This document shows, piece after piece, positions 53,153-64,000 of a DNA stretch of 64,000 bases. This DNA is from Paenibacillus sp. FSL H7-0357 (GTDB taxonomy: Bacteria; Bacillota; Bacilli; Paenibacillales; Paenibacillaceae), in contig NZ_CP009241.1 in assembly GCF_000758525.1 (NCBI RefSeq), positions 1,550,001-1,614,000 of the forward strand. The letters are read 5' to 3'. Both the position numbers and the translations under genes were made by a program. Below the pieces are notes generated by a model. That model was not told where the DNA came from and ran no database searches. It saw nothing but the letters and a program-made list of their open reading frames with translations. Positions within the stretch are counted from its first letter, which is position 1. Every line of letters starts with the position of its first letter.

Positions 53153-53174
53153 GTTAGCCTAGGGAGAGATGATT

Positions 53175-54407
53175 ATGAAGCGGTACGAAGATTTGTCGCC
53201 GTCTCTGCGGTGCATTATGACCCCGGGTCCGGTGGAAGTCGATCCGCGAGTGCTGCGGGCCATGTCTTTTCCGGTATTGGGACAGTTCGATCCCGAATTT
53301 ACGGGTATTATGAATGAAACGATGGAGATGCTGCGGGAACTGTTCGTTACGGACAATCAATGGGCTTTCCCTGTGGACGGCACTTCACGCTCCGGAATCG
53401 AAGCGGCAATGGTCAGTTTGATTGCTCCGGGGGACCGGGTGCTGATCCCGATTTTTGGCCGCTTCGGCCATTTGCTGCATGAAATCGCCGAACGCTGCGG
53501 GGCAGAGGTGCTGACGCTTGAGAAGGAATGGGGTTGCGTGTTTGACCCCGAGGAAGTGATTGCAGCCATGAAGAGCTTCAAGCCTGATATCGTAGCAATC
53601 GTACATGGAGAGACCTCCACGGGACGTGTGCAGCCGCTGGCCGGCATCGGGCGGGCCTGCCGTGAGCAGGATGCCCTGCTGATTGTGGATGCGGTGGCGA
53701 CGATCGGAGGTGTGCCCGTGGAGACGGATGCCTGGATGCTGGATGCCGTGATCGGCGGCACGCAGAAATGCCTGTCCATTCCTTCGGGCATGGCCCCGGT
53801 TACGTACAATGCACGGGCGGAGGCCAAGCTCCTGAAGCGCAAGCGGGTGGAGCGTGGCCTGAGGACCGGTGAGGTCCAGACTGAAGCGCTGGATTTTGTG
53901 CGCAGCAATTATTTTGACCTGGGAATGCTTCAGGATTACTGGAGCCCCCAGCGGCTGAATCATCATACAGAGATGACCTCCATGCTTTATGCGCTGCGCG
54001 AAGGGCTGCGGCTGGTGCTTGAGGAAGGGCTGGAGGCCCGGCATGCCCGGCATGCGCTGCATGAAGAGGCGCTAGTAGCCGGACTTACGGCAATGGGGCT
54101 GAAGCTGTACGGAGATCCGCAGAGCAAACTGACGGTGGTGACCTGTGTGCTGATTCCGGAGGGCGTTGACGGGGAAGCCGTGCGGACAATGCTGCTGGAA
54201 CGCTTCGGCATTGAGATTGCCAGTTCTTTCGGGCCGTTAAAAGGGCGGATCTGGCGCATCGGTACGATGGGCTTCAGCTGCCGGGAGAATAATGTGCTGC
54301 GCCTGCTCGGTGCGCTGGAGGGGGCGCTGCTGCGGCATGGGCATACTGTTCCCGCCGGGCTTGGCGTTCAGGCGGCACTTGACGTATATGATGCAAAAGT
54401 AAGATAA
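53175..54407 (+). CDS. pucG: Ureidoglycine-glyoxylate aminotransferase (PucG type)
   Basis: A class V PLP aminotransferase of 410 residues. In B. subtilis PucG transfers the amino group of ureidoglycine to glyoxylate, giving oxalurate and glycine. Features include TPGPVEVDPRVL at the N-terminus, the substrate/PLP loop in VDGTSRSGIEAAM, VHGETSTGRVQPL, the Asp stacking with PLP in LLIVDAVATIGG and the PLP-binding Lys in GGTQKCLSIPSG. ATG 53175 has AGGGAGA at 53161-53167 well spaced; ATG 53169 is too close. A terminator follows. Confidence 0.9.
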   Translation: MKRYEDLSPSLRCIMTPGPVEVDPRVLRAMSFPVLGQFDPEFTGIMNETMEMLRELFVTDNQWAFPVDGTSRSGIEAAMVSLIAPGDRVLIPIFGRFGHLLHEIAERCGAEVLTLEKEWGCVFDPEEVIAAMKSFKPDIVAIVHGETSTGRVQPLAGIGRACREQDALLIVDAVATIGGVPVETDAWMLDAVIGGTQKCLSIPSGMAPVTYNARAEAKLLKRKRVERGLRTGEVQTEALDFVRSNYFDLGMLQDYWSPQRLNHHTEMTSMLYALREGLRLVLEEGLEARHARHALHEEALVAGLTAMGLKLYGDPQSKLTVVTCVLIPEGVDGEAVRTMLLERFGIEIASSFGPLKGRIWRIGTMGFSCRENNVLRLLGALEGALLRHGHTVPAGLGVQAALDVYDAKVR

Positions 54408-54486
54408 TCGGTTGAACACTGCAGCCGGTCGAGTGTAGGAAACAGGTGCTGTCCGGATGAAACGGACGGCCCGCGCTTTAACCAAG

Positions 54487-54529
54487 AAACGGCTTGCGTC
54501 CTGCAAAGGGCAGTAAGGCCGTTTTTCTT
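54487..54529 (+). terminator. Terminator of the puc operon after pucG
   Basis: AAACGGC pairs with GCCGTTT region (AGGCCGTTTTT) around an inner CTGC/GCAG hairpin, with a short T-run (TTTTTCTT). Confidence 0.7.
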
Positions 54530-54538
54530 AAAATATAT

Positions 54539-54628
54539 GAATTTATATGCTTCTCGCTATAAATTATCCTTCTATTTCTCGCATAAACGGATACCGTCCT
54601 TTTGAAGACGGCGAGCCGTTTCCACTTG
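54539..54628 (+). repeat. Dispersed intergenic repeat, copy B (90 bp)
   Basis: The second copy of the element at 36155-36245, same orientation, between pucG and ade. Both hairpins are conserved: AATTTATA/TATAAATT with a 10-nt loop, and AAACGG/CCGTTT enclosing a CCGTC/GACGG helix. Stem sequence is better conserved than the loop and linker, which suggests selection on structure or recent spread. Confidence 0.85.
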
Positions 54629-54705
54629 ATATACAAGGTCATAGTTGTTTAACGCTGTAACTCAGTTTGTAGTTATGTGCAAGATATCGGAGGGGAGTGG
54701 AAGTC

Positions 54706-56511
54706 ATGACTTATATTAGAAAACCTTTGGCGGATTGTGTACCTGAGCTTGTGGCTACAGCCCGCGGCGATCAGCCGGCATCTTTGGTAATAACCGGCGG
54801 GAAGCTGGTCAATGTAATCTCCGGTGAAATTCTGGAGGGAATGTCTGTTGCGGTACAGGGGGGACGCATCGCCTATGTCGGCAAGGATGTTTCGCACACG
54901 ATAGGAGCAGGCACGCAGGTCATTGATGCAGCCGGCAGATATATCGCTCCGGGACTGCTTGACGGACATTGTCATATTGAGAGCACACAGCTGACAGCAA
55001 CGGAATTTGCCCGTGCGGTCCTGCCGCTCGGGACAACTGGCGGGTTCTTCGACGCGCATGAGATTGCCAATGTGTTCGGACTGAAGGGCATCAAGCTGAT
55101 GCTGGATGAGATGCGCGGCACACCGCTTGCCGCTTATATGCAGGTAGCGTCCTGTGTGCCTTCGGCGGGAGCTGAATTCGAAACAACCGGCGCTTCTATC
55201 GGACCGGAGGAAGTGGCGGAGGCTTATACCTGGGGGCCGGATGTCATTGCCCTCGGTGAGGTGATGAACTTTCCGGGCGTAGTCTACGGCGATGAGAAAA
55301 TGCTCGGCGAGATCCAGGCTACACTGCGGGCCGGCAGATACGTGGATGGGCATTTTACCTGGCCGTCCAGTGACTGGAGACTACCGGTCTATGCGGCAGC
55401 GGGTGTAACCGGTGACCATGAGTGTGTTACCGCAGAAGATGTGATCGAGCGTGTCCGTCTGGGGATGTATGCCAAAATGCGCCGCGGTTCCGCCTGGCAT
55501 GATGTGGCGAAGACGATCACAGCGCATACCGAACACGGGCTGGAGACGCGCCGTATGATGCTCGTTACCGATGACCGCAGCTCGGAATCACTGCGGGATG
55601 AAGGACATATGGACTTTGTGGTGCGCCATGCCATTTCCCAGGGTGTGAAGCCTGTCACTGCCTTCCAGATGGCAACGATCAATACCGCCGAGCGCTTCGG
55701 GGTAGCCCGCGATATCGGCTCAATTACTCCGGGCTCCTGCGCAGATATTATTTTGCTGGACGGGAATTTGGCCGATGTCAACGTCGTTATGACCATTGCC
55801 GCAGGTGTGGTCGTGGCCGAGAATGGTATCATGACGGCCTCGCTGCCGGCATTCACCTACCCGCAGGAAGTGCTGGCGTCCGTTCATTTGCCGCAGCTTC
55901 CGGTTCCTGATGATTTTATTATCCATGCTCCCGTGGAGTCAGGCAGTGTTGCTGTCCGGGTCATTAAGGTCATCGAGAACCATGTGGAGACCGGTGAACT
56001 CATTGTGCAGCGTCCCGTGAAGGACGGCAAGCTGCAGGTGGGAGACGGCCTATGCAAAATCGCTGTATTCGAACGGCATAAAGGAACCGGCAACAAATCG
56101 GTCGGGCTTGTGGAGGGGATTGGCTTCCATGAACCGGCGGCAATCGCCATGACCGTTGCCCACGACAGCCACAATGTGCTGATCATCGGCAACGATGATG
56201 AACTGATGGCCAAGGCCGCCCGGGCTGTAGCAGAAGCGCAGGGCGGAGTGGCTGTAATTACCGGCGGCGGCACGACCTTGTTCCCGCTTGCGATTGCCGG
56301 ACTTATGTCCGCAGAACCGTTTGAGACCGCAGCCGCCCAGTCCGCTGCTATCAGCAAAGCTCTGTACGATGCAGGCTGCACACTGAATTATGCTTTTATG
56401 ACGCTGTCACTGCTTGCGCTTGCGGTAATTCCGACCTTGCGCATTTCGGATAAAGGACTGGTACGCATCTCTCCGGAAGAGGGAATCCAGCTGGTAACAT
56501 TATTTTGCTAA
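54706..56511 (+). CDS. ade: Adenine deaminase
   Basis: Deaminates adenine to hypoxanthine, feeding xanthine dehydrogenase. About 601 residues of the amidohydrolase-type AdeC family, with metal motif LLDGHCHIESTQL, GTTGGFFDAHEIANVFG, the HxxH-like VDGHFTW, and MLVTDDRSSE. The C-terminal family-specific domain has GLVEGIGFHEPAAIAMTVAHD and ALAVIPTLRISDKGLV. The start is ATG 54706 with GGAGGGGA at 54689-54696; GTG 54697 is rejected. It lies 298 bp after pucG, beyond a terminator and the repeat, so it has its own promoter or depends on readthrough. Confidence 0.95.
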   Translation: MTYIRKPLADCVPELVATARGDQPASLVITGGKLVNVISGEILEGMSVAVQGGRIAYVGKDVSHTIGAGTQVIDAAGRYIAPGLLDGHCHIESTQLTATEFARAVLPLGTTGGFFDAHEIANVFGLKGIKLMLDEMRGTPLAAYMQVASCVPSAGAEFETTGASIGPEEVAEAYTWGPDVIALGEVMNFPGVVYGDEKMLGEIQATLRAGRYVDGHFTWPSSDWRLPVYAAAGVTGDHECVTAEDVIERVRLGMYAKMRRGSAWHDVAKTITAHTEHGLETRRMMLVTDDRSSESLRDEGHMDFVVRHAISQGVKPVTAFQMATINTAERFGVARDIGSITPGSCADIILLDGNLADVNVVMTIAAGVVVAENGIMTASLPAFTYPQEVLASVHLPQLPVPDDFIIHAPVESGSVAVRVIKVIENHVETGELIVQRPVKDGKLQVGDGLCKIAVFERHKGTGNKSVGLVEGIGFHEPAAIAMTVAHDSHNVLIIGNDDELMAKAARAVAEAQGGVAVITGGGTTLFPLAIAGLMSAEPFETAAAQSAAISKALYDAGCTLNYAFMTLSLLALAVIPTLRISDKGLVRISPEEGIQLVTLFC

Positions 56512-56564
56512 GGCGGTCTTAATCTTACAGTGACAAGTTTGAATTAAATAGAATCCGCTCTACT

Positions 56565-56610
56565 AAATGGGGTGTCTCTTAGTCTGAATGCAGACAGAGA
56601 CACCCCATTT
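56565..56610. repeat. Perfect 14-bp inverted repeat after ade
   Basis: AAATGGGGTGTCTC (56565-56578) and its complement at 56597-56610 enclose an 18-nt loop. The right arm is followed by CGCTATG rather than a T-run. It may be a weak ade terminator or a remnant of an inserted element; it overlaps the start of the small ORF below. Confidence 0.65.
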
Positions 56611-56838
56611 CGCTATGAAATTGGTCCTTATATGGCGGCGTGGCAATATGAGGGGAAGCCCTTTTTTGAGTCGGAAGTCGCAGGGGAAAGGTATTTTCTT
56701 AGATTTGAGGGCATATATTTAACCATTTCATCACATATTGAAACTATTTATTATAAAATTTTAATGAAAAACATTAACAAAATAATGAAAATAGACGATA
56801 ATACCTATAAATTAATTAAAATTATTGCCAAATCGTGA
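56572..56838 (+). CDS. Doubtful small ORF, AT-rich 3' half
   Basis: An 88-codon frame whose only upstream start (GTG 56572) lies inside the left arm of a perfect inverted repeat and lacks a ribosome binding site; ATG 56632 also lacks one. The first half has normal composition, the second is very AT-rich and codes for mostly Ile, Lys, Asn and Tyr (YKILMKNINKIMKIDDNTY). It may be a decayed gene end or chance ORF. No family recognised. Confidence 0.25.
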   Translation: MSLSLNADRDTPFRYEIGPYMAAWQYEGKPFFESEVAGERYFLRFEGIYLTISSHIETIYYKILMKNINKIMKIDDNTYKLIKIIAKS

Positions 56839-56889
56839 TTATCAGACAAAATGACTGAAAGTTCAAATATATGGAACGGGGTGGATGAG

Positions 56890-57342
56890 ATGATCAAATT
56901 AGAAACGCAGGACATCGTGAATATTACTATAAAGCAAATTGCCGGTATTTTTAAAATGGAGCCGCTTGAGTTGAGATTTGTGAATGATTTTCAAGGAGAA
57001 CAATATCTCTTAACGAATGACAAGCTGCATCTCAACAACCAGCATTACTGGGCAAAAGTTATGGAATGTGTTTTCGACAATCATGTCAGACCGGTTCTGA
57101 TGTGTGAAGTGCTCTACTTCCTGCGCAATGAATTTCTGGAGAGTGACATCAAGCTCAGCTTCTCCTACGATTTTGCCGAAGGTGCAGACGGAGCGGCAAC
57201 GGTATCTGCGGAAGTCAGCTTTAATGATTCACCGGAACTGCAGCCGGGAGAAATTGCCGAACTGATTGATTTTGCACTGTCCCTCCAGGACAAACAATGG
57301 TTTGAGGAACTGACCTCCAAATACAAACAACTGACTGCATGA
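56890..57342 (+). CDS. IDEAL domain-containing protein
   Basis: About 150 residues. The C-terminal segment (ELIDFALSLQDKQWFEELTS) matches the IDEAL domain pattern (I-D-x-A-L, then D and F-x-x-L), a short helical module seen in Bacillales proteins such as YpiB and ComK-related factors. The upstream part (residues 1-110) is mixed alpha/beta with a conserved-looking HYWAKVMECVFDNH stretch and no membrane segments. ATG 56890 is preceded by GGGGTGG; ATG 56851 lacks a ribosome binding site. Function is unknown; IDEAL domains mediate protein interactions. Confidence 0.8.
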   Translation: MIKLETQDIVNITIKQIAGIFKMEPLELRFVNDFQGEQYLLTNDKLHLNNQHYWAKVMECVFDNHVRPVLMCEVLYFLRNEFLESDIKLSFSYDFAEGADGAATVSAEVSFNDSPELQPGEIAELIDFALSLQDKQWFEELTSKYKQLTA

Positions 57343-57374
57343 GATTGGTGTACAGTTCTATCATACCCGCATTT

Positions 57375-57424
57375 AATAAGCCGCCCTGTCCGCAGTGTTC
57401 ATCTGCGCAAGGGGCGGCTTATTT
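57375..57424. terminator. Bidirectional terminator between the IDEAL gene and hemH
   Basis: AATAAGCCGCCC (57375-57386) pairs with GGGCGGCTTATT, with an inner CGCAG/CTGCG helix; T-rich on both strands. Confidence 0.85.
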
Positions 57425-57463
57425 CTTTGATAGATACTATATTTACTTATGGGTTCAAATGCA

Positions 57464-58492
57464 CTATAAAACAGCTTCCTTCAGCCAGCCTTGAGCATTC
57501 TCACTGACGCTTTGTGCCAGAAAGTCCAGCCAGTCTTCACTGTCGTTCAAACAGGGGGCGGCAAGGAAGGAGTCTGCTTGTCCACCTCCGGCAGCAAATT
57601 GCTCTCTTCCTTCCACAGCAAGCTCATGCAATGTTTCCAGGCAATCGGTCACAAGTCCGGGCGAAAAAATCATCGGCCGCTGAATCCCGCGTCCGGCCAG
57701 CCCCTTCAGGACTTCCTCTGTAGATGGCCCAATCCATTCCTCGCGGCCAAAACGGGATTGAAATGAGATTTGCCAATCCCCGGACGCCCAATTCATCGCT
57801 TCTGCGAGCAGGCGGGCCGTTTCCAGACACTGCTCCGGGTAGGGGTCTCCGGTCTCTGCATATCTGCTGGGAATCCCGTGAAAGGTCAGCACGAAGTAAT
57901 CCGGTTTGGTGTTTATTTTACGTAGTTCCCGCAGTAAAAGCTCTTTCATGGCAAGGATATACCCCGGTGCATTATAGTAGGCTTCCATAAACCGGAGTGC
58001 GGGTACAAAACGTTTGGATACCGGTCCGGCAGCGCTGCGGCGCCCCAGAGCGGCAAAGCAGGCGGCGTCGTAGACGGATGCTGTGGTAGTAGAAGAATAT
58101 TGCGGAAACAAGGGGGCCACGATGATCCGGGTCACTCCGGAGGACTCCAGTCTGGCAAATGCCTGTTCCATGCCGGGCTCACTGTAGGCAAGACCCAGTT
58201 CCACCTGATAACGGCTGCCGAGCAGCTTTTGCAGTCCGGCCACCTGGGCCTGTGAATGAAGCAGCAGTGGGGAACCTTCCTTGAGCCAGATTTCGCTGTA
58301 GAGCTTGGCAGACCGGTGTGGCCTTACCCGTAAAATAATTCCGCGCAGCAGCGGCTGCCACAGCAGAGGGGGATAATCAATGATCCGGCGGTCGGAGAGG
58401 AACCTCCGCAGATAAGGGCGTACCGACTTGGCGGTGGGGGCGTCAGGTGTTCCGATTTGGGCGAGAATGACGCCGATAGAGGGCTGATTCAA
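57464..58492 (-). CDS. hemH: Ferrochelatase, proteobacterial-type
   Basis: Inserts Fe(II) into a porphyrin. Of 342 residues, the catalytic His lies in LTFHGIPSRYAETGDPYPEQ, then SFQSRFGREEWIGPSTEEVL, and the acidic partner Glu in SPGLVTDCLETLHELAVEG, ending APCLNDSEDWL. These motifs are those of proteobacterial protoporphyrin ferrochelatases. Typical Firmicute enzymes (CpfC) have the S-A-H-S-L-P motif and use coproporphyrin III, so this gene may have come by transfer or define a second ferrochelatase. The start has a GGAGCG-type site. It is monocistronic and divergent from the FMN-binding protein gene. Confidence 0.92.
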   Translation of the reverse strand: MNQPSIGVILAQIGTPDAPTAKSVRPYLRRFLSDRRIIDYPPLLWQPLLRGIILRVRPHRSAKLYSEIWLKEGSPLLLHSQAQVAGLQKLLGSRYQVELGLAYSEPGMEQAFARLESSGVTRIIVAPLFPQYSSTTTASVYDAACFAALGRRSAAGPVSKRFVPALRFMEAYYNAPGYILAMKELLLRELRKINTKPDYFVLTFHGIPSRYAETGDPYPEQCLETARLLAEAMNWASGDWQISFQSRFGREEWIGPSTEEVLKGLAGRGIQRPMIFSPGLVTDCLETLHELAVEGREQFAAGGGQADSFLAAPCLNDSEDWLDFLAQSVSENAQGWLKEAVL

Positions 58493-58754
58493 CGTAGTGA
58501 ACGCTCCTTTACATTAACATGACATCGTTATAAAGTATCATAATCCTCTTTGTAAGTACAATACAGGACATCACATTATTATCATATGACGGAGTAAATG
58601 GGAGTATTTGAGAGATAAAAAATTTATTGAATTAAAATAAAATGAAAATAGTGATGTTTCTAATAGGGTGTGTGATTTTATGTACAGAGAAGCCAAGCTT
58701 TGATTTGATACCATCAAGCCAGAAATTGCCTCTAGCAGACATGAACTAATAAAT
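58493..58754 (+). other. AT-rich non-coding spacer between hemH and the FMN-binding gene
   Basis: No gene is seen. It is AT-rich in 58610-58650 and probably holds the hemH promoter on the minus strand. It leads to the redox-type operators that start at 58755. Confidence 0.5.
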
Positions 58755-58768
58755 GTGAATTAATTCAC
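58755..58768. promoter_or_regulatory. Rex/FNR-type palindrome, site 1
   Basis: GTGAATTAATTCAC is a perfect 14-bp palindrome, preceded by AT. The GTGAA-n4-TTCAC core is that of Rex operators (redox sensor of NADH/NAD), and TGTGA-n6-TCAC also fits the FNR/CRP half-site pattern. It lies about 215 bp upstream of the FMN-binding protein start. Confidence 0.65.
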
Positions 58769-58776
58769 CTATCTAT

Positions 58777-58790
58777 GTGAATTGTTTCAC
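58777..58790. promoter_or_regulatory. Rex/FNR-type palindrome, site 2
   Basis: GTGAATTGTTTCAC keeps both half-sites GTGAA and TTCAC. Its centre is exactly 22 bp from that of site 1, about two helical turns, so dimers would bind on the same face. This supports functional, possibly cooperative, redox regulation. Confidence 0.65.
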
Positions 58791-58980
58791 CTTTTGAATG
58801 GGATATTCGTAAGAGCTCTTCTATGGTGCATGGGATAGCTAACGGGAGGACGGGAAAGGGGGGATGACCTCTTAGGAGGAAGCAGGATCTTCTTCTTAAG
58901 AAGGGATGAGAGACGGCCAAACGGAAGATCAGCTGTAAAGTGCTACATACTACTGGGGATATGGTAAAGGAGAATACTCA
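58791..58980 (+). other. Long 5' leader of the FMN-binding protein gene
   Basis: About 190 bp between the operators and the start codon. The region is purine-rich with short palindromes (CTTCTTAAGAAG at about 58893-58904) and several G-runs. A possible -10 (GATATTCG region near 58803-58810) follows site 2. No known riboswitch class could be matched by eye. The ribosome binding site is AAAGGAGAA close to the TTG start. Confidence 0.4.
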
Positions 58981-61281
58981 TTGAAAAAACTGATTTCTTT
59001 GACTGTAAGCGCAGCCTTGTTGCTTGCGCCAATCGCTTACACAATTAATGCACCTGCACTGAATTTGAAGGTGGATGCGGTTTCTGCCGCTTCGGAAGAA
59101 GCAACGGCTAAACCGGAAGCAACACCAAAGGCAACAGCCAAACCGGCTGCAACGCCCAAAGCGACTGAAAAACCAGCAGCAACAAAGAAACCGGCTGCAA
59201 CGCCCAAAGCGACTGCGAAGCCAGCTGCAACAGCGAAGCCAGCTGCAACAGCCAAACCAGCTACAACAGCTAAGCCAGCTGCAACGGCTAAACCAGCTGC
59301 AACAGCTAAACCAGCTACCACGGCTAAACCGACTGCAACAGCTAAACCAGCTGCAACAGTTAAACCGGCCGCTACTGCTAAGCCTGTAACGGTTCAACAA
59401 GATGTGTATCAAGACGGGGTATATGTAGCTTACGGCGATGCTTACTCCAAAGGTACCGAAGGCGCGAAAGTAACGATTAAAGACGGCAAAATCGCTTCCA
59501 TTGATCTGCTGAGAACATCTCCGAAGCTGATCGACAGAAATGTCCGTGAGAATTACAGCGGCCTCTGGGCGGCATATGGTCTGATGAAAGACAGACTGCT
59601 CGGCAAGACAAGAGTTGGAGCTGCTGCAGTGGATGCTGTTTCCGGTGCAACCCGCTCCAGCAACGGCTGGAAATTGTCGGTAGACAGAGCTTTTGAAAGA
59701 GCGCTGAAAGTAAAACCGGCTGACGCCACTTATTTCGAAGGCGACATCATGGGTATTGACCCTCAAGGTAAATATGCGGTATTTGCAACCTACGATGCCA
59801 CCAAGCTGACTGCGGTTAAACTGTACCCGCTGACAACAAGCGGAGATTTCGCGGATGAAAAAACCTACACTGCAGAGCAAACTGCAGCGATTGCGGCAAT
59901 CACGTCTGTACTGCTCGCAAACGGTTCGTCCGCACAACCTGTAGCCGGATTTGAAGCTGACTCCAAAGCTGCAATCCAGGCATTCTGGGATGCAGAGCAG
60001 AACGCCCTCATCAATAACACTTCCGCTTATGTTGACGGATTCTACTCTTCCTACGGTACTGCAAGAAGCGTAGGCGTGGAAAGAGCCGATATCGTTATCC
60101 GCAACGGCAAGCTGGTAGATGTGAAGCTGTACAGACTGGGTTCCAATCTGGTAGATAGAGGCACAACTGCTTATGCAGAAGTTGTAAAAGCAAATGCACC
60201 AATGACAGCCAAATTGCTTGCCAACGGTTCTTATTTGGCCAATTATGATGAAAAGGTAGACGGTATTTCCGGCGCTACCGAAAGCAGCCATGGCTGGAAC
60301 CAAGCTGTAGAAAGAGCTTTCGAGAAGGCGCTGAAAGTTCCTGCAGAAGGCAAATATTTTGAAGGCAAATTCGCCGGCGTAGACAACCAGAACAAAGTCC
60401 TGCTGCTGGTCGACATTGCTGCCGACAAAGTAAGCGGCATTAAAGTAAGCCTCTTTGCAGCTGACGGCAAAATTATTGCCGATGACAAGCTGACACCTGA
60501 ACAAAAAACTGTAGTCGGACTGCTGACTGCAGGTTTGCTTGAACAAGGCGTGGATTTGACGGATGTTCCGGGTCAAGAAGTTTTGTCCAAAGCGGCAAAA
60601 GCAGCTCTGACAGACGCTTTGACCAATGCTTCCAAAGTACAAGGCACTTATAAAGACGGCACTTTCACCGCTTTCGGTGATGCTTATGATAAAGGAACCA
60701 ACAGAGCAGATGTAACTCTGCGCAACGGCAAGATTGTGAATGTTGCTCTTTCCCGTGTAGGTATGAATATGGTGGATTTAGGTAAAGCGGCTTATGCTGA
60801 AGTTCAAAAAGCAATTCCGCAGCTGACTACCAGCTTCCTTGCTGCAGGAACAAGAGAAGGTGTACAATCGGTAGATGCCATCTCCGGCGCTACAAGCAGC
60901 AGCAATGCACTGAAAGCTGCTGTAGACAGAGCTTACGGTAAAGCTGAAGTTGTAGAAACCGACAAAGCAGCTTACTTTGATGGAATTTTCATTGGAGCAA
61001 GTGCCGACAAATCCGTCAATGTTATGGTTACTGTCAAAAATAACATTCCTGTGTTGATGCTGGTCTATTATCTCGACGGTGCCGGAAAAGTGAAGACCCC
61101 ATATCTATTAACACCGGCTGAGCTTGCGGTGAAGACAGAAATTGAGTCCACTTCCAGCACGAATGGCCTGCATAAATACGGATACCGTCCGGCAGCCTTC
61201 GGAGCCAATGATGCTGAGAAGGATGTTTCCGCCAAAGCAGTAGAAGCAATCAAAGCTGCGCTGGAAGCAGCAGGCAAATAA
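58981..61281 (+). CDS. Secreted protein with three FMN-binding modules (PplA-like)
   Basis: A 766-residue protein. The signal peptide (MKKLISLTVSAALLLAPIAY) has no lipobox. Residues about 41-138 form an Ala-Thr-Lys-Pro repeat linker. Three similar modules of about 205 residues follow, each with an FMN_bind (PF04205) domain carrying a flavinylation-type motif: VSGATRSS (Thr224), ISGATESS (Thr433) and ISGATSSS (Thr638). Each is followed by a YF(E/D)G-starting sub-domain without that motif. ApbE-type enzymes attach FMN to such Thr residues. Listeria PplA, a related surface flavoprotein, serves extracellular electron transfer. An equivalent role here is inferred. TTG start behind AAAGGAGAA. Confidence 0.88.
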   Translation: MKKLISLTVSAALLLAPIAYTINAPALNLKVDAVSAASEEATAKPEATPKATAKPAATPKATEKPAATKKPAATPKATAKPAATAKPAATAKPATTAKPAATAKPAATAKPATTAKPTATAKPAATVKPAATAKPVTVQQDVYQDGVYVAYGDAYSKGTEGAKVTIKDGKIASIDLLRTSPKLIDRNVRENYSGLWAAYGLMKDRLLGKTRVGAAAVDAVSGATRSSNGWKLSVDRAFERALKVKPADATYFEGDIMGIDPQGKYAVFATYDATKLTAVKLYPLTTSGDFADEKTYTAEQTAAIAAITSVLLANGSSAQPVAGFEADSKAAIQAFWDAEQNALINNTSAYVDGFYSSYGTARSVGVERADIVIRNGKLVDVKLYRLGSNLVDRGTTAYAEVVKANAPMTAKLLANGSYLANYDEKVDGISGATESSHGWNQAVERAFEKALKVPAEGKYFEGKFAGVDNQNKVLLLVDIAADKVSGIKVSLFAADGKIIADDKLTPEQKTVVGLLTAGLLEQGVDLTDVPGQEVLSKAAKAALTDALTNASKVQGTYKDGTFTAFGDAYDKGTNRADVTLRNGKIVNVALSRVGMNMVDLGKAAYAEVQKAIPQLTTSFLAAGTREGVQSVDAISGATSSSNALKAAVDRAYGKAEVVETDKAAYFDGIFIGASADKSVNVMVTVKNNIPVLMLVYYLDGAGKVKTPYLLTPAELAVKTEIESTSSTNGLHKYGYRPAAFGANDAEKDVSAKAVEAIKAALEAAGK
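59100..59390 (+). repeat. Minisatellite encoding the Ala-Thr-Lys-Pro linker
   Basis: Degenerate 18-bp units (GCAACAGCTAAACCAGCT-like) repeat about 16 times and encode alternating TAKPAA blocks. The array creates spurious long antisense frames. It encodes an extended, wall-spanning linker and is a likely site of length variation by slippage. Confidence 0.85.
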
Positions 61282-61460
61282 TACAGCAACGTCTATGAGG
61301 AGGTTATTCAGGCCCTGTAAATGGCTCTGGATAGCCTCTTTTTATGCTGTAAGCAAAGGCTATTGACCGGCTTGGTACAAGCCCGGGCATAATTATGAAT
61401 CGTTATCGTATAGTAATTTAAAGGGATTTCGAAGGTGAATGTCAAAAGTTTAATATACAC

Positions 61461-61480
61461 AGCAGGATATAATACCTGCT
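61461..61480. promoter_or_regulatory. Dyad overlapping a -10 box upstream of yhaM
   Basis: AGCAGGATATAATACCTGCT has 6-bp inverted arms (AGCAGG/CCTGCT) around a TATAAT (61468-61473). As DNA it looks like an operator overlapping a promoter; no regulator can be named, and the -35 region is weak. Confidence 0.4.
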
Positions 61481-61499
61481 AGTAATGGGAGGCTCCAAC

Positions 61500-62456
61500 A
61501 TGACACTAATTAAACAGCTATCTCCGCAGGACGAATTTGTCGGGTTCTATCTGTTACGGGAGCTGACGCTCAAACAGACAAACGGTACTCCTCCAAAGGA
61601 TTATTTTGATATTGTACTCGGTGATTCAAGCGGTCAGATAACAGCTAAATATTGGGATGTCAGCACAACTGATAAAGAAACCTTTTTCCCTATGGCGCTG
61701 GTGAAGGTGCGCGGCATAGCACATACCTATCGTGAGAAGCTGCAGGTCAAGATTACCAAGATCAGACTGGCCAATGAGACGGACGGTGTATCGCTCACTG
61801 ATTTTATCCGGTCTGCGCCAATCCGTCCCGTTGATCTTATCCATACGATTAAAGGGGTGATGAGCAGCATTGCCGATCAGGAGATTTCCGCAATCGTCTC
61901 CTTCTGTGTCGGTAAGGTGGAAGAGAAGCTGATGCATTATCCCGCAGCCAAGACCTATCACCATGCTTATTTTGCCGGACTTGCCTATCATATGGTGCGG
62001 ATGCTGGAGATTGGTGATTTTCTCTGCAAACAGCGTCCGTTCCTGAACCCTGATCTGATGAAGGCGGGGATCATTCTGCATGATATCGCCAAGCCGGAGG
62101 AGATGATTTCCCAGTTTGGCATTGTGTCGGATTACAGTGTGCAGGGGAAGCTGATCGGCCATATCTCGATGGCGTCGAACTGGATTACCGAGGCCGCGAT
62201 TCGTTTGGGTTTTACTCTGGATTCGGAAAAGGTTATCGCGCTGCAGCATTTGGTCTTATCCCATCATAATCTAGGCGAATGGGGAAGCCCTGTTCAGCCG
62301 CAAACGGCGGAAGCGGTGGCGCTGCATCATATCGATGCGATGGATGCCAAGCTGCAGATGGTGGAGGATGCGCTGGATACGACCCCGGAAACAGAAGAAT
62401 GGACACCGTTTATCCGCGGACTGGAGAACAAGGCGGTTTACCGGTCGAAAATCTAG
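61500..62456 (+). CDS. yhaM: 3'-5' exoribonuclease YhaM
   Basis: Metal-dependent 3'-5' exonuclease acting on short RNA and DNA; a cytosolic multimer. The 318 residues match B. subtilis YhaM. An N-terminal OB-fold (about 10-95, DYFDIVLGDSSGQITAKYWD) is followed by an HD domain with His in TYHHAYFAGLAYHM, the HD pair in IILHDIAKPEE, and a second His in LQHLVLSHHNLGEWGSP. It ends in a conserved helical tail (YRSKI). ATG 61500 is preceded by GGGAGG at 61488-61493. A strong terminator follows. Confidence 0.95.
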   Translation: MTLIKQLSPQDEFVGFYLLRELTLKQTNGTPPKDYFDIVLGDSSGQITAKYWDVSTTDKETFFPMALVKVRGIAHTYREKLQVKITKIRLANETDGVSLTDFIRSAPIRPVDLIHTIKGVMSSIADQEISAIVSFCVGKVEEKLMHYPAAKTYHHAYFAGLAYHMVRMLEIGDFLCKQRPFLNPDLMKAGIILHDIAKPEEMISQFGIVSDYSVQGKLIGHISMASNWITEAAIRLGFTLDSEKVIALQHLVLSHHNLGEWGSPVQPQTAEAVALHHIDAMDAKLQMVEDALDTTPETEEWTPFIRGLENKAVYRSKI

Positions 62457-62473
62457 AATCGTCAAAAAAACGC

Positions 62474-62519
62474 AAAGAGCAGGTCTTCTTGAGTAACAGA
62501 GAAGACCTGCTCTTTATTT
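62474..62519. terminator. Terminator between yhaM and the exonuclease gene
   Basis: A perfect 16-bp stem AAAGAGCAGGTCTTCT (62474-62489) with 62500-62515, followed by ATTTTGAT; A-rich on the opposite side. Confidence 0.9.
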
Positions 62520-62546
62520 TGATCCACAGCGGGTTGCCGGGCTGTC

Positions 62547-63203
62547 TCAGAACTGCTGCTCAAAAGGTGCTGCAGGGAGCAGTGGAACCCGTTTTTTGCC
62601 GGGTTTCTTTGCTGCTTTTTTGGGTGGTGATTTAAAAGGAGTATATCCGCCCGAATACATCGTTCCGGCTTTATAGCCTTGACTGTCCGCGAGCAGCAGC
62701 GGTTCGAATTGCTGCTGCTGTTCCATCAGCTTCAATAAGATAATAGCCGCAGCCCGGGCATCATCGAGTGCGTCATGATGCTTCAGGCGGATACCGAAAT
62801 GCTGTGAGATTACATTCAATTTATGGGAAGGCAACTCCTGGAGCATTTTTTTTCCCAGCAGATAGGTGCACATATATTGAAAATTCGGGTAGCTGGTCCC
62901 TGAGGCGTCCAGACAATAACGCAGCACGCTCATATCGAAGGCGGCATTATGCGCCACGACGATTTCGCCTTGCAGCAGCGGTTCGAGCAAGGGCCACAGC
63001 TCAGCAAAAGTAGGCTGCCCCTGGACCATTGAGGGCGTGATCCCGTGAATAGCAATGTTCATCCCGTCAAACCGCTGGCGCGGGTCAATCAGCCAGACAT
63101 GCTCGGCTGTAATAACACCTTCTCTAACCTGGACAAGACCCAGGGAGCAGGCGCTGGAGCGGCTGGAATTCGCCGTCTCAAAGTCAATTGCTGTAAAGTT
63201 CAT
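62547..63203 (-). CDS. DEDD 3'-5' exonuclease (DnaQ/PolC epsilon-like)
   Basis: A 218-residue exonuclease. ExoI motif FTAIDFETANSSR, ExoII VVAHNAAFDMSVLRY and ExoIII KHHDALDDARAAA give the acidic metal ligands and the His of the DEDDh type. A basic, proline-rich C-terminal tail (about 185-218, PPKKAAKKPGKKR) may contact nucleic acid or a partner. The start is ATG at 63203; a longer frame to 63275 has no ribosome binding site. Probably a repair or RNA/DNA trimming nuclease rather than the replicative proofreader. Confidence 0.9.
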   Translation of the reverse strand: MNFTAIDFETANSSRSSACSLGLVQVREGVITAEHVWLIDPRQRFDGMNIAIHGITPSMVQGQPTFAELWPLLEPLLQGEIVVAHNAAFDMSVLRYCLDASGTSYPNFQYMCTYLLGKKMLQELPSHKLNVISQHFGIRLKHHDALDDARAAAIILLKLMEQQQQFEPLLLADSQGYKAGTMYSGGYTPFKSPPKKAAKKPGKKRVPLLPAAPFEQQF

Positions 63204-63355
63204 TTGGTAAAGCCCCTTATCTATCAGGTATATCATTAATACTAAAGTAGTGAGGGGGTAAATACAATCTAGCAATTTTACAAAACCTTGTGAGTATGAT
63301 ATTCCTTATATATGAAAAATTGGAAGAGTACATCGAGGGATGAGGAGATGAGGCT

Positions 63356-64000
63356 ATGCAGCAGCTGCTAAAGGGTCAAAAGGTAGATGTAACAAAAGGG
63401 AAAAACGTAAATGAGCTTACATTATCCTTCGGATGGTCAACCGCTAATCAAGAGATGGGAATAGATGCCGCTGCATTTTTGTTGTCGGAGCGGGGACGCT
63501 GCGAACGTGATGAGGACTTTATTTTCTATGGAAATCCGGTATCACAGGATGGAGCCGTAACACACACAGTCTTGAAGCAGGGAGATAAGGAAAGTCTCTC
63601 GGTTTCATTGTCCCGTCTGCCGCAGCAGGTTGCCCGGATCGCCTTGACATTGACTATCTATGAAGGCGAACAGCTGAATCACCGCATGAAAGATGTATCC
63701 GGCCTTTATCTGAAGCTCCAGGATCGTCAGAGCGGCGAGGAACTGCTCCGTTTTGAGTATGGCTCTGATTTATCCGATGAGACAGCGATCGTAGCAGGAG
63801 AATTATACCGCCATAACGGGGAGTGGAAGTTTAACGCCATCGGCAGCGGTTTTAATGGAGGCTTGGCTGCACTATGCGTCAATTTTGGACTTGAAGTGGA
63901 AGAGGTAGGTTCTGCGGAGGTTGCTGCTGCAGCTGAAGTGCTGGCACCGCTTGAACCGCCTTCACCAACGCCGCCGCCAGCACCAGCCGAGCCGTCCACA
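63356..64000 (+). CDS. TerD family protein (partial, cut by the window end)
   Basis: ATG 63356 with GAGGAGATGAGG just upstream; the frame stays open to the last base (215 codons). The N-terminal half is a TerD/tellurium-resistance fold: QQLLKGQKVDVTKGKN, LTLSFGWSTANQ, DAAAFLLSERG and DFIFYGNPVSQDGAV, later YGSDLSDETAIVAGELYRHN and GEWKFNAIGSGFNGGL. After about residue 185 it becomes Ala/Glu then Pro-rich (PPSPTPPPAP), a linker to a further domain outside the window. TerD proteins bind calcium and act in stress responses. Confidence 0.88.
   Translation, partial: MQQLLKGQKVDVTKGKNVNELTLSFGWSTANQEMGIDAAAFLLSERGRCERDEDFIFYGNPVSQDGAVTHTVLKQGDKESLSVSLSRLPQQVARIALTLTIYEGEQLNHRMKDVSGLYLKLQDRQSGEELLRFEYGSDLSDETAIVAGELYRHNGEWKFNAIGSGFNGGLAALCVNFGLEVEEVGSAEVAAAAEVLAPLEPPSPTPPPAPAEPST

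Follow-up and report, generated by a model that had tools for sequence, protein, structure and literature searches.

A gene for a secreted protein with three FMN_bind domains was examined in a stretch of 64,000 nucleotides from Paenibacillus sp. FSL H7-0357 (contig NZ_CP009241.1, positions 1,550,001 to 1,614,000), hereafter the window. It covers 58981..61281 of the window on the plus strand and encodes 766 amino acids, starting with TTG and including the stop codon. The triple FMN_bind protein is best explained as an electron carrier at the level of the cell wall that would hold covalent flavin mononucleotide (FMN) attached by the flavin transferase ApbE1, with a probability of about 0.6. This explanation builds on computed domains, motifs, gene content and a predicted fold, together with a signal peptide assigned by eye. 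A role in electron export, exerted through a dispersed gene set, is plausible.

Domains, motifs and predicted architecture

The Pfam family FMN_bind (PF04205) matched the whole protein with 74 bits at a cut-off of 22, and the predicted fold agreed, confirming the domain identity proposed in the original prediction, which had been made from the DNA letters alone. Three FMN_bind stretches were resolved in a profile search of the genome with 35.2, 30.1 and 28.9 bits, each above the cut-off. The corresponding subdomains were F1 (residues 141-246, 59401..59718), F2 (residues 346-453, 60016..60339) and F3 (residues 547-656, 60619..60948), all on the plus strand. They were delimited by profile and model, F3 additionally by structural match; the boundaries of F1 were set by the analyst. 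Structure comparison showed that the F domains share the FMN_bind fold; their sequences are 42-48% identical to one another. The three SGAT modules and the open reading frame lay exactly where they had been predicted and all three site residues were threonines, namely Thr224 in DAVSGAT (codon 59650..59652), Thr433 in DGISGAT (60277..60279) and Thr638 in DAISGAT (60892..60894), again on the plus strand. The spacing was 209 residues between the first two sites and 205 between the last two. The target motif of ApbE is given as D-x-x-[S/T]-G-A-[S/T] in a review (PMC12052999), and 3/3 predicted flavinylation sites fitted it exactly. When the body of the protein (626 residues, 141-766) was shuffled 20,000 times, the mean motif count was 0.009 and three motifs were reached in 0 shuffles.

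A protein search with residues 141-766 returned 66 relatives. Where telling, their source names were Paenibacillus, Fontibacillus or compost metagenome. Site counts were based on 58 full-length homologues, leaving out six sequences shorter than 600 amino acids and two distant ones (P0065 and P0066). Site 1 was threonine in 58/58 homologues. Site 2 was threonine in 56/58 and serine in 2/58, and site 3 was threonine in 56/58, serine in 1/58 and a gap in 1/58. Threonine or serine thus occupied all three sites in 57/58 homologues, the remaining one being that with the gap at site 3. The aspartate six residues N-terminal of the site threonine was kept in 58, 58 and 57 of the 58 homologues at sites 1, 2 and 3, and the first serine of SGAT was replaced by alanine in 5, 14 and 4, respectively. 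Near-full-length matches to the triple FMN_bind protein were present in 58 of 100 genomes of the genus, including its own. Any match at E 0.001 was found in 68/100, some of the weak ones hitting the linker region.

Multi-flavinylated proteins form a class of extracytosolic proteins with at least two FMN-binding domains each (PMC8238504). With three such domains and a signal peptide recognised by eye, the triple FMN_bind protein is, judged by its sequence, a predicted member of this class. Surveyed members likewise combine several FMN_bind domains in an extracytosolic protein and are common in Gram-positives (PMC8238504, PMC11334425). Altogether, 2081 multi-FMN proteins, having as many as 13 predicted sites, were reported from 1530 genomes (PMC8238504), and proteins with three and four flavins have been purified, SaFMN3 from Streptomyces azureus and CbFMN4 (PMC10339131). 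The expectation that a triple-flavin protein would be unusual in itself was therefore not upheld. Paenibacillus is not named in the main text of PMC8238504, and a member may stand in supplementary files. Described forms comprise beads on a string, circularly permuted proteins, a three-petaled flower with PF07833 and proteins with a coiled-coil core (PMC11334425). The flower form carries PF07833, whereas the triple FMN_bind protein had no PF07833 hit, and it differs from beads on a string by its predicted fixed domain packing. SaFMN3 and CbFMN4 resemble it in having several motif-bearing FMN_bind domains per protein, and their single domains were among the best structural matches. However, within each of these proteins the domains share more than 80% identity and are connected by flexible linkers (PMC10339131), whereas the more divergent F domains alternate with other domains and are predicted to be held rigidly.

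The alternating elements are the motif-less partner subdomains that the original prediction had assigned to each FMN domain and that were recovered as P1 (residues 247-345, 59719..60015), P2 (residues 454-546, 60340..60618) and the C-terminal P3 (residues 657-766, 60949..61278), on the plus strand. P1 was the only one modelled separately. The model of residues 245-345 took the FMN_bind fold without the motif, as seen from its matches in the PDB. P2 and P3 were assigned by homology to P1 (hhalign, 99% and 96%; 99% between P2 and P3) and by the same order of strands and helices in the whole-body model. In that predicted structure, all six subdomains formed one rigid body with a predicted local distance difference test score (pLDDT) of 94.9 and a predicted template modelling score (pTM) of 0.92. 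What is unusual about the protein, as modelled, is that FMN_bind domains with the motif alternate with degenerate ones in a single predicted rigid unit. On the evidence of this model, such a unit is new among multi-flavinylated proteins, and alternating degenerate FMN_bind domains found no mention in the sections consulted of PMC8238504, PMC11334425 or PMC10339131. If the fixed geometry is real, the protein would be a naturally occurring, flavin-based equivalent of multi-haem wires, with measurable cofactor spacing. Ten further sequences were tested for partner-type domains, which were strong in one relative only. Another of the ten, P0194 (741 amino acids), was a distant multi-FMN protein with five F-type FMN_bind domains and three motifs; its motif-less domains were of the F type, unlike the partner type. 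P0191 (1203 amino acids, Clostridium polyendosporum) and P0192 (1076 amino acids) combined a Fer4_5 part with eight and seven FMN_bind-type domains, respectively, each with a motif.

The N-terminus comprised a putative signal peptide (residues 1-36, 58981..59088, plus strand) that was recognised by eye from a KK pair, a hydrophobic core and a VSA|A cleavage site. The N-termini of the homologues resembled this region. The remaining residues, 37-766, have a mass of 76 kDa. An Ala/Thr/Lys/Pro linker followed (residues 41-140, 59101..59400, plus strand), with a net charge of about +16 at pH 7 and a length that varied among the homologues. The ribosome-binding site AAAGGAG was read at 58966..58972, 8 bases 5' of the TTG. 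As originally stated, the protein lacked both a lipobox and a sortase motif. Cysteine was absent from all 766 residues, precluding a lipobox, and no LPxTG-like motif occurred anywhere in them.

These properties separate it from PplA of Listeria monocytogenes (NF041941), an FMN_bind protein that receives its flavin from an ApbE-type enzyme and serves in extracellular electron transfer (PMC12052999). The triple FMN_bind protein matched the PplA model weakly, its 32.1 bits being far below the cut-off of 325. With about 300 amino acids, the lipoprotein PplA contrasts with a protein of 766 residues with three sites and no cysteine. NqrC and RnfG, membrane-anchored subunits of ion-pumping complexes, contain an FMN_bind domain with the same motif, and their profiles gave weak hits in the triple FMN_bind protein.

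Candidate flavin transferase and electron-export locus

The original prediction had noted no ApbE or Ndh2/EetAB genes next to the gene. This held for the window but not for the genome, which encodes two ApbE proteins, EetB together with energy-coupling factor (ECF) subunits, and proteins resembling EetA and Ndh2. Both ApbE genes were located outside the window by profile search. ApbE1 (1512334-1513497, minus strand) lay 95 kb upstream of the triple FMN_bind gene and had an N-terminal hydrophobic segment, recognised by eye, and no FMN_bind neighbour. With orthologs defined by at least 600 bits, or as present in two pieces (G044), ApbE1 occurred in 65 of the 100 genomes, comprising 58/58 with the triple FMN_bind gene and 7/42 without it (Fisher 2.5e-20, ignoring phylogeny). 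Exactly three FMN_bind hits were present in 7/58 gene-bearing genomes, and in 7/7 of these all three fell inside the triple FMN_bind open reading frame. Each of the seven also encoded a single ApbE (PF02424), so that ApbE1 and the triple FMN_bind protein are the only recognised pair there. The other 51 gene-bearing genomes carried further FMN_bind hits. Together, these genomic data strongly point to ApbE1 as the modifying enzyme, and FMN is probably attached to the triple FMN_bind protein by ApbE1.

A structural wall protein that is un- or only partly flavinylated, its motif being kept for non-covalent flavin binding, would accommodate the serines found at sites 2 and 3 and the alanines replacing the first serine of SGAT. 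This is very improbable given the threonine or serine retained at all three sites in nearly every homologue, ApbE1 in every gene-bearing genome and the lack of any other FMN_bind hit in the seven genomes examined.

ApbE2, near 7001164, had no evident signal. It sits beside an FMN_bind protein of 135 residues that has a hydrophobic segment at its N-terminus, and their cluster (L009:7815-10052, minus strand) further includes a flavodoxin/ferredoxin-type protein. Elsewhere, a 662-residue protein (L008:7581-9569, minus strand) with a lipobox-like start combined FMN_bind and FAD_binding_2 and, by its sequence, is like extracellular fumarate-type reductases.

EetB (PF07456) and FmnA are essential for the flavin export that serves flavinylation in Listeria (PMC9973259). 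PF07456 had one hit in the Paenibacillus sp. FSL H7-0357 genome (G000), within a Listeria-like locus at 523.9-537.2 kb, 1.07 Mb from the triple FMN_bind gene. The genes were ordered as EetA-like NusG_II, EetB, two ECF ATPases and ECF-T. Further along, within 13 kb, came a UbiA-type prenyltransferase, a polyprenyl synthase, a 626-residue Pyr_redox_2 protein and a 302-residue PplA-like lipoprotein. The Pyr_redox_2 protein bore a long C-terminal part and was called Ndh2-like by position. The names EetA for NusG_II, Ndh2 and those of the prenyl genes are taken by us to follow the Listeria locus. A flavin adenine dinucleotide (FAD) exporter consisting of EetB, ECF-T and ECF ATPases and an FMN transferase were both present in the genome, with apbE outside the locus. 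Ten further gene-bearing genomes were compared, the seven above and three hand-picked ones. All nine locus genes were matched in 9/10; in one of these nine, the final gene extended past the retrieved sequence. In the remaining genome, G025, the locus was truncated by the end of a contig.

EetB was detected in 86 of the 100 genomes. Each of these belonged to the 89 whose ApbE match exceeded 100 bits, and none to the 11 with no or a weaker match. It was absent from G022, G081 and G093 despite ApbE matches above 100 bits, and present in 56/58 gene-bearing genomes. Of 24 gene-less genomes that combine EetB with a different ApbE, 15 had the two matches 651-776 bp apart, and in the other nine they were not close. 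This distribution indicates that exporter and transferase belong together in the genus even where they are unlinked. An ApbE match adjoining EetB and no FMN_bind hit at E 0.001 were observed in G013, G023, G024 (L047), G032, G033, G052, G061, G065 and G069.

The locus lipoprotein (L053:6254-7162, corresponding to 536253-537161 of G000, minus strand) carried two SGVS motifs in place of SGAT and scored 74.3 bits against the PplA model, below the cut-off of 325. Among the matches listed (120 of 761), 76 were 270-330 amino acids long, query included. In these, SGVS made up 130/154 motif instances, any [S/T]GA[S/T] motif occurred in two proteins and a lipobox in all 76. A closer PplA-like lipoprotein with 218.6 bits and two canonical SGAT motifs was encoded in the gene-bearing genome G049 (L048:7593-8492, minus strand). 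FmnB modifies a threonine of PplA, and changing the motif alanine to valine decreases flavinylation to about 50%, while threonine to serine lowers it by 10-55% (PMC12052999). Modification of the SGVS lipoprotein is therefore possible but unsure, and the triple FMN_bind protein is the most canonical known ApbE target in the seven genomes.

Proposed mechanism and points against it

The triple FMN_bind protein would be secreted, after which ApbE1 would transfer FMN from FAD onto Thr224, Thr433 and Thr638 on the outer side of the membrane. By analogy with Listeria, the FAD may be supplied by the EetB/ECF exporter. The product, either soluble or bound loosely to the wall, would contain three FMNs, which the three degenerate FMN_bind domains may keep apart within one rigid body. 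As a guess, the cationic linker could tether the protein in the anionic cell wall or let it span the wall. Electrons would be supplied at the membrane by an Ndh2/quinone route, as in the Listeria system and perhaps via the PplA-like lipoprotein. They could then be handed on to acceptors within the wall or outside it, the final acceptor being a guess.

The function of multi-flavinylated proteins has been called unclear (PMC8238504, PMC11334425). The seven genomes with one ApbE and one FMN_bind protein offer a clean case for it, and the EetB/Ndh2-like locus is encoded separately from the triple FMN_bind protein and can be deleted by itself. The protein may be a little-noticed part of electron export in Paenibacillus-type soil bacteria. 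It is rather doubtful, though conceivable, that in one branch of Paenibacillus the covalent-flavin role of PplA moved to the rigid six-domain protein. Its three empty spacer domains would then fix three FMNs as a short flavin wire crossing the wall, while the locus lipoprotein changed to SGVS and lost the usual mode of covalent flavin attachment.

Several observations weigh against the wall-level electron carrier. Its flavin attachment and export are predictions, and the co-occurrence tests for ApbE1 were not corrected for phylogeny. Six of the seven genomes with ApbE1 and no triple FMN_bind gene had other FMN_bind hits, showing that ApbE1 is not exclusive to this protein, and two other FMN_bind proteins were present in its own genome. 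The gene-bearing genomes lacking an EetB hit were G081 and G093. The Ndh2-like protein was above no NCBIfam cut-off. NqrB/RnfD (NQR2_RnfD_RnfE) and DUF4405 had no hit in the genome of Paenibacillus sp. FSL H7-0357, which leaves room for other donors. With SGVS motifs in the locus lipoprotein, electrons may or may not pass through it. Finally, the electron-export genes were not linked to the triple FMN_bind gene, whose neighbours were a ferrochelatase and an HD protein.

Gene neighbourhood and alternative functions

The ferrochelatase was encoded divergently at 57464..58492 (minus strand, Pfam) and the OB-fold/HD protein, which we take to be YhaM-like, downstream at 61485..62456 (plus strand, Pfam). 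Within flanks of 1.5 kb and counting the own locus, they accompanied the gene in 27/30 and 29/30 loci, respectively. No electron-transfer gene adjoined the triple FMN_bind gene among the eight proteins of window positions 53169-64000 scanned with Pfam, and the ferrochelatase neighbourhood is not a redox operon.

The recurrent ferrochelatase would fit a role in iron assimilation as a secreted, flavinylated reductase or electron buffer, with the FMNs reducing ferric iron near the cell for ferrous uptake. Flavinylation and iron transporter genes colocalize in other bacteria (PMC8238504). However, no iron transporter was among the eight scanned proteins, and the ferrochelatase is divergent and missing from the 1.5-kb flanks in 3/30 loci, making this function unlikely. 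It is still less probable that the protein uses up oxygen through its reduced FMNs in the wall, protecting the cell or making peroxide. Reduced SaFMN3 does use dioxygen (PMC10339131), yet the eight neighbouring proteins included no peroxide-handling gene. Moreover, reactivity with oxygen is general among reduced flavins.

An antisense open reading frame of 554 amino acids (58978-60642, minus strand) overlies the triple FMN_bind gene and probably arises from the codon usage of that gene and the repetitive linker.
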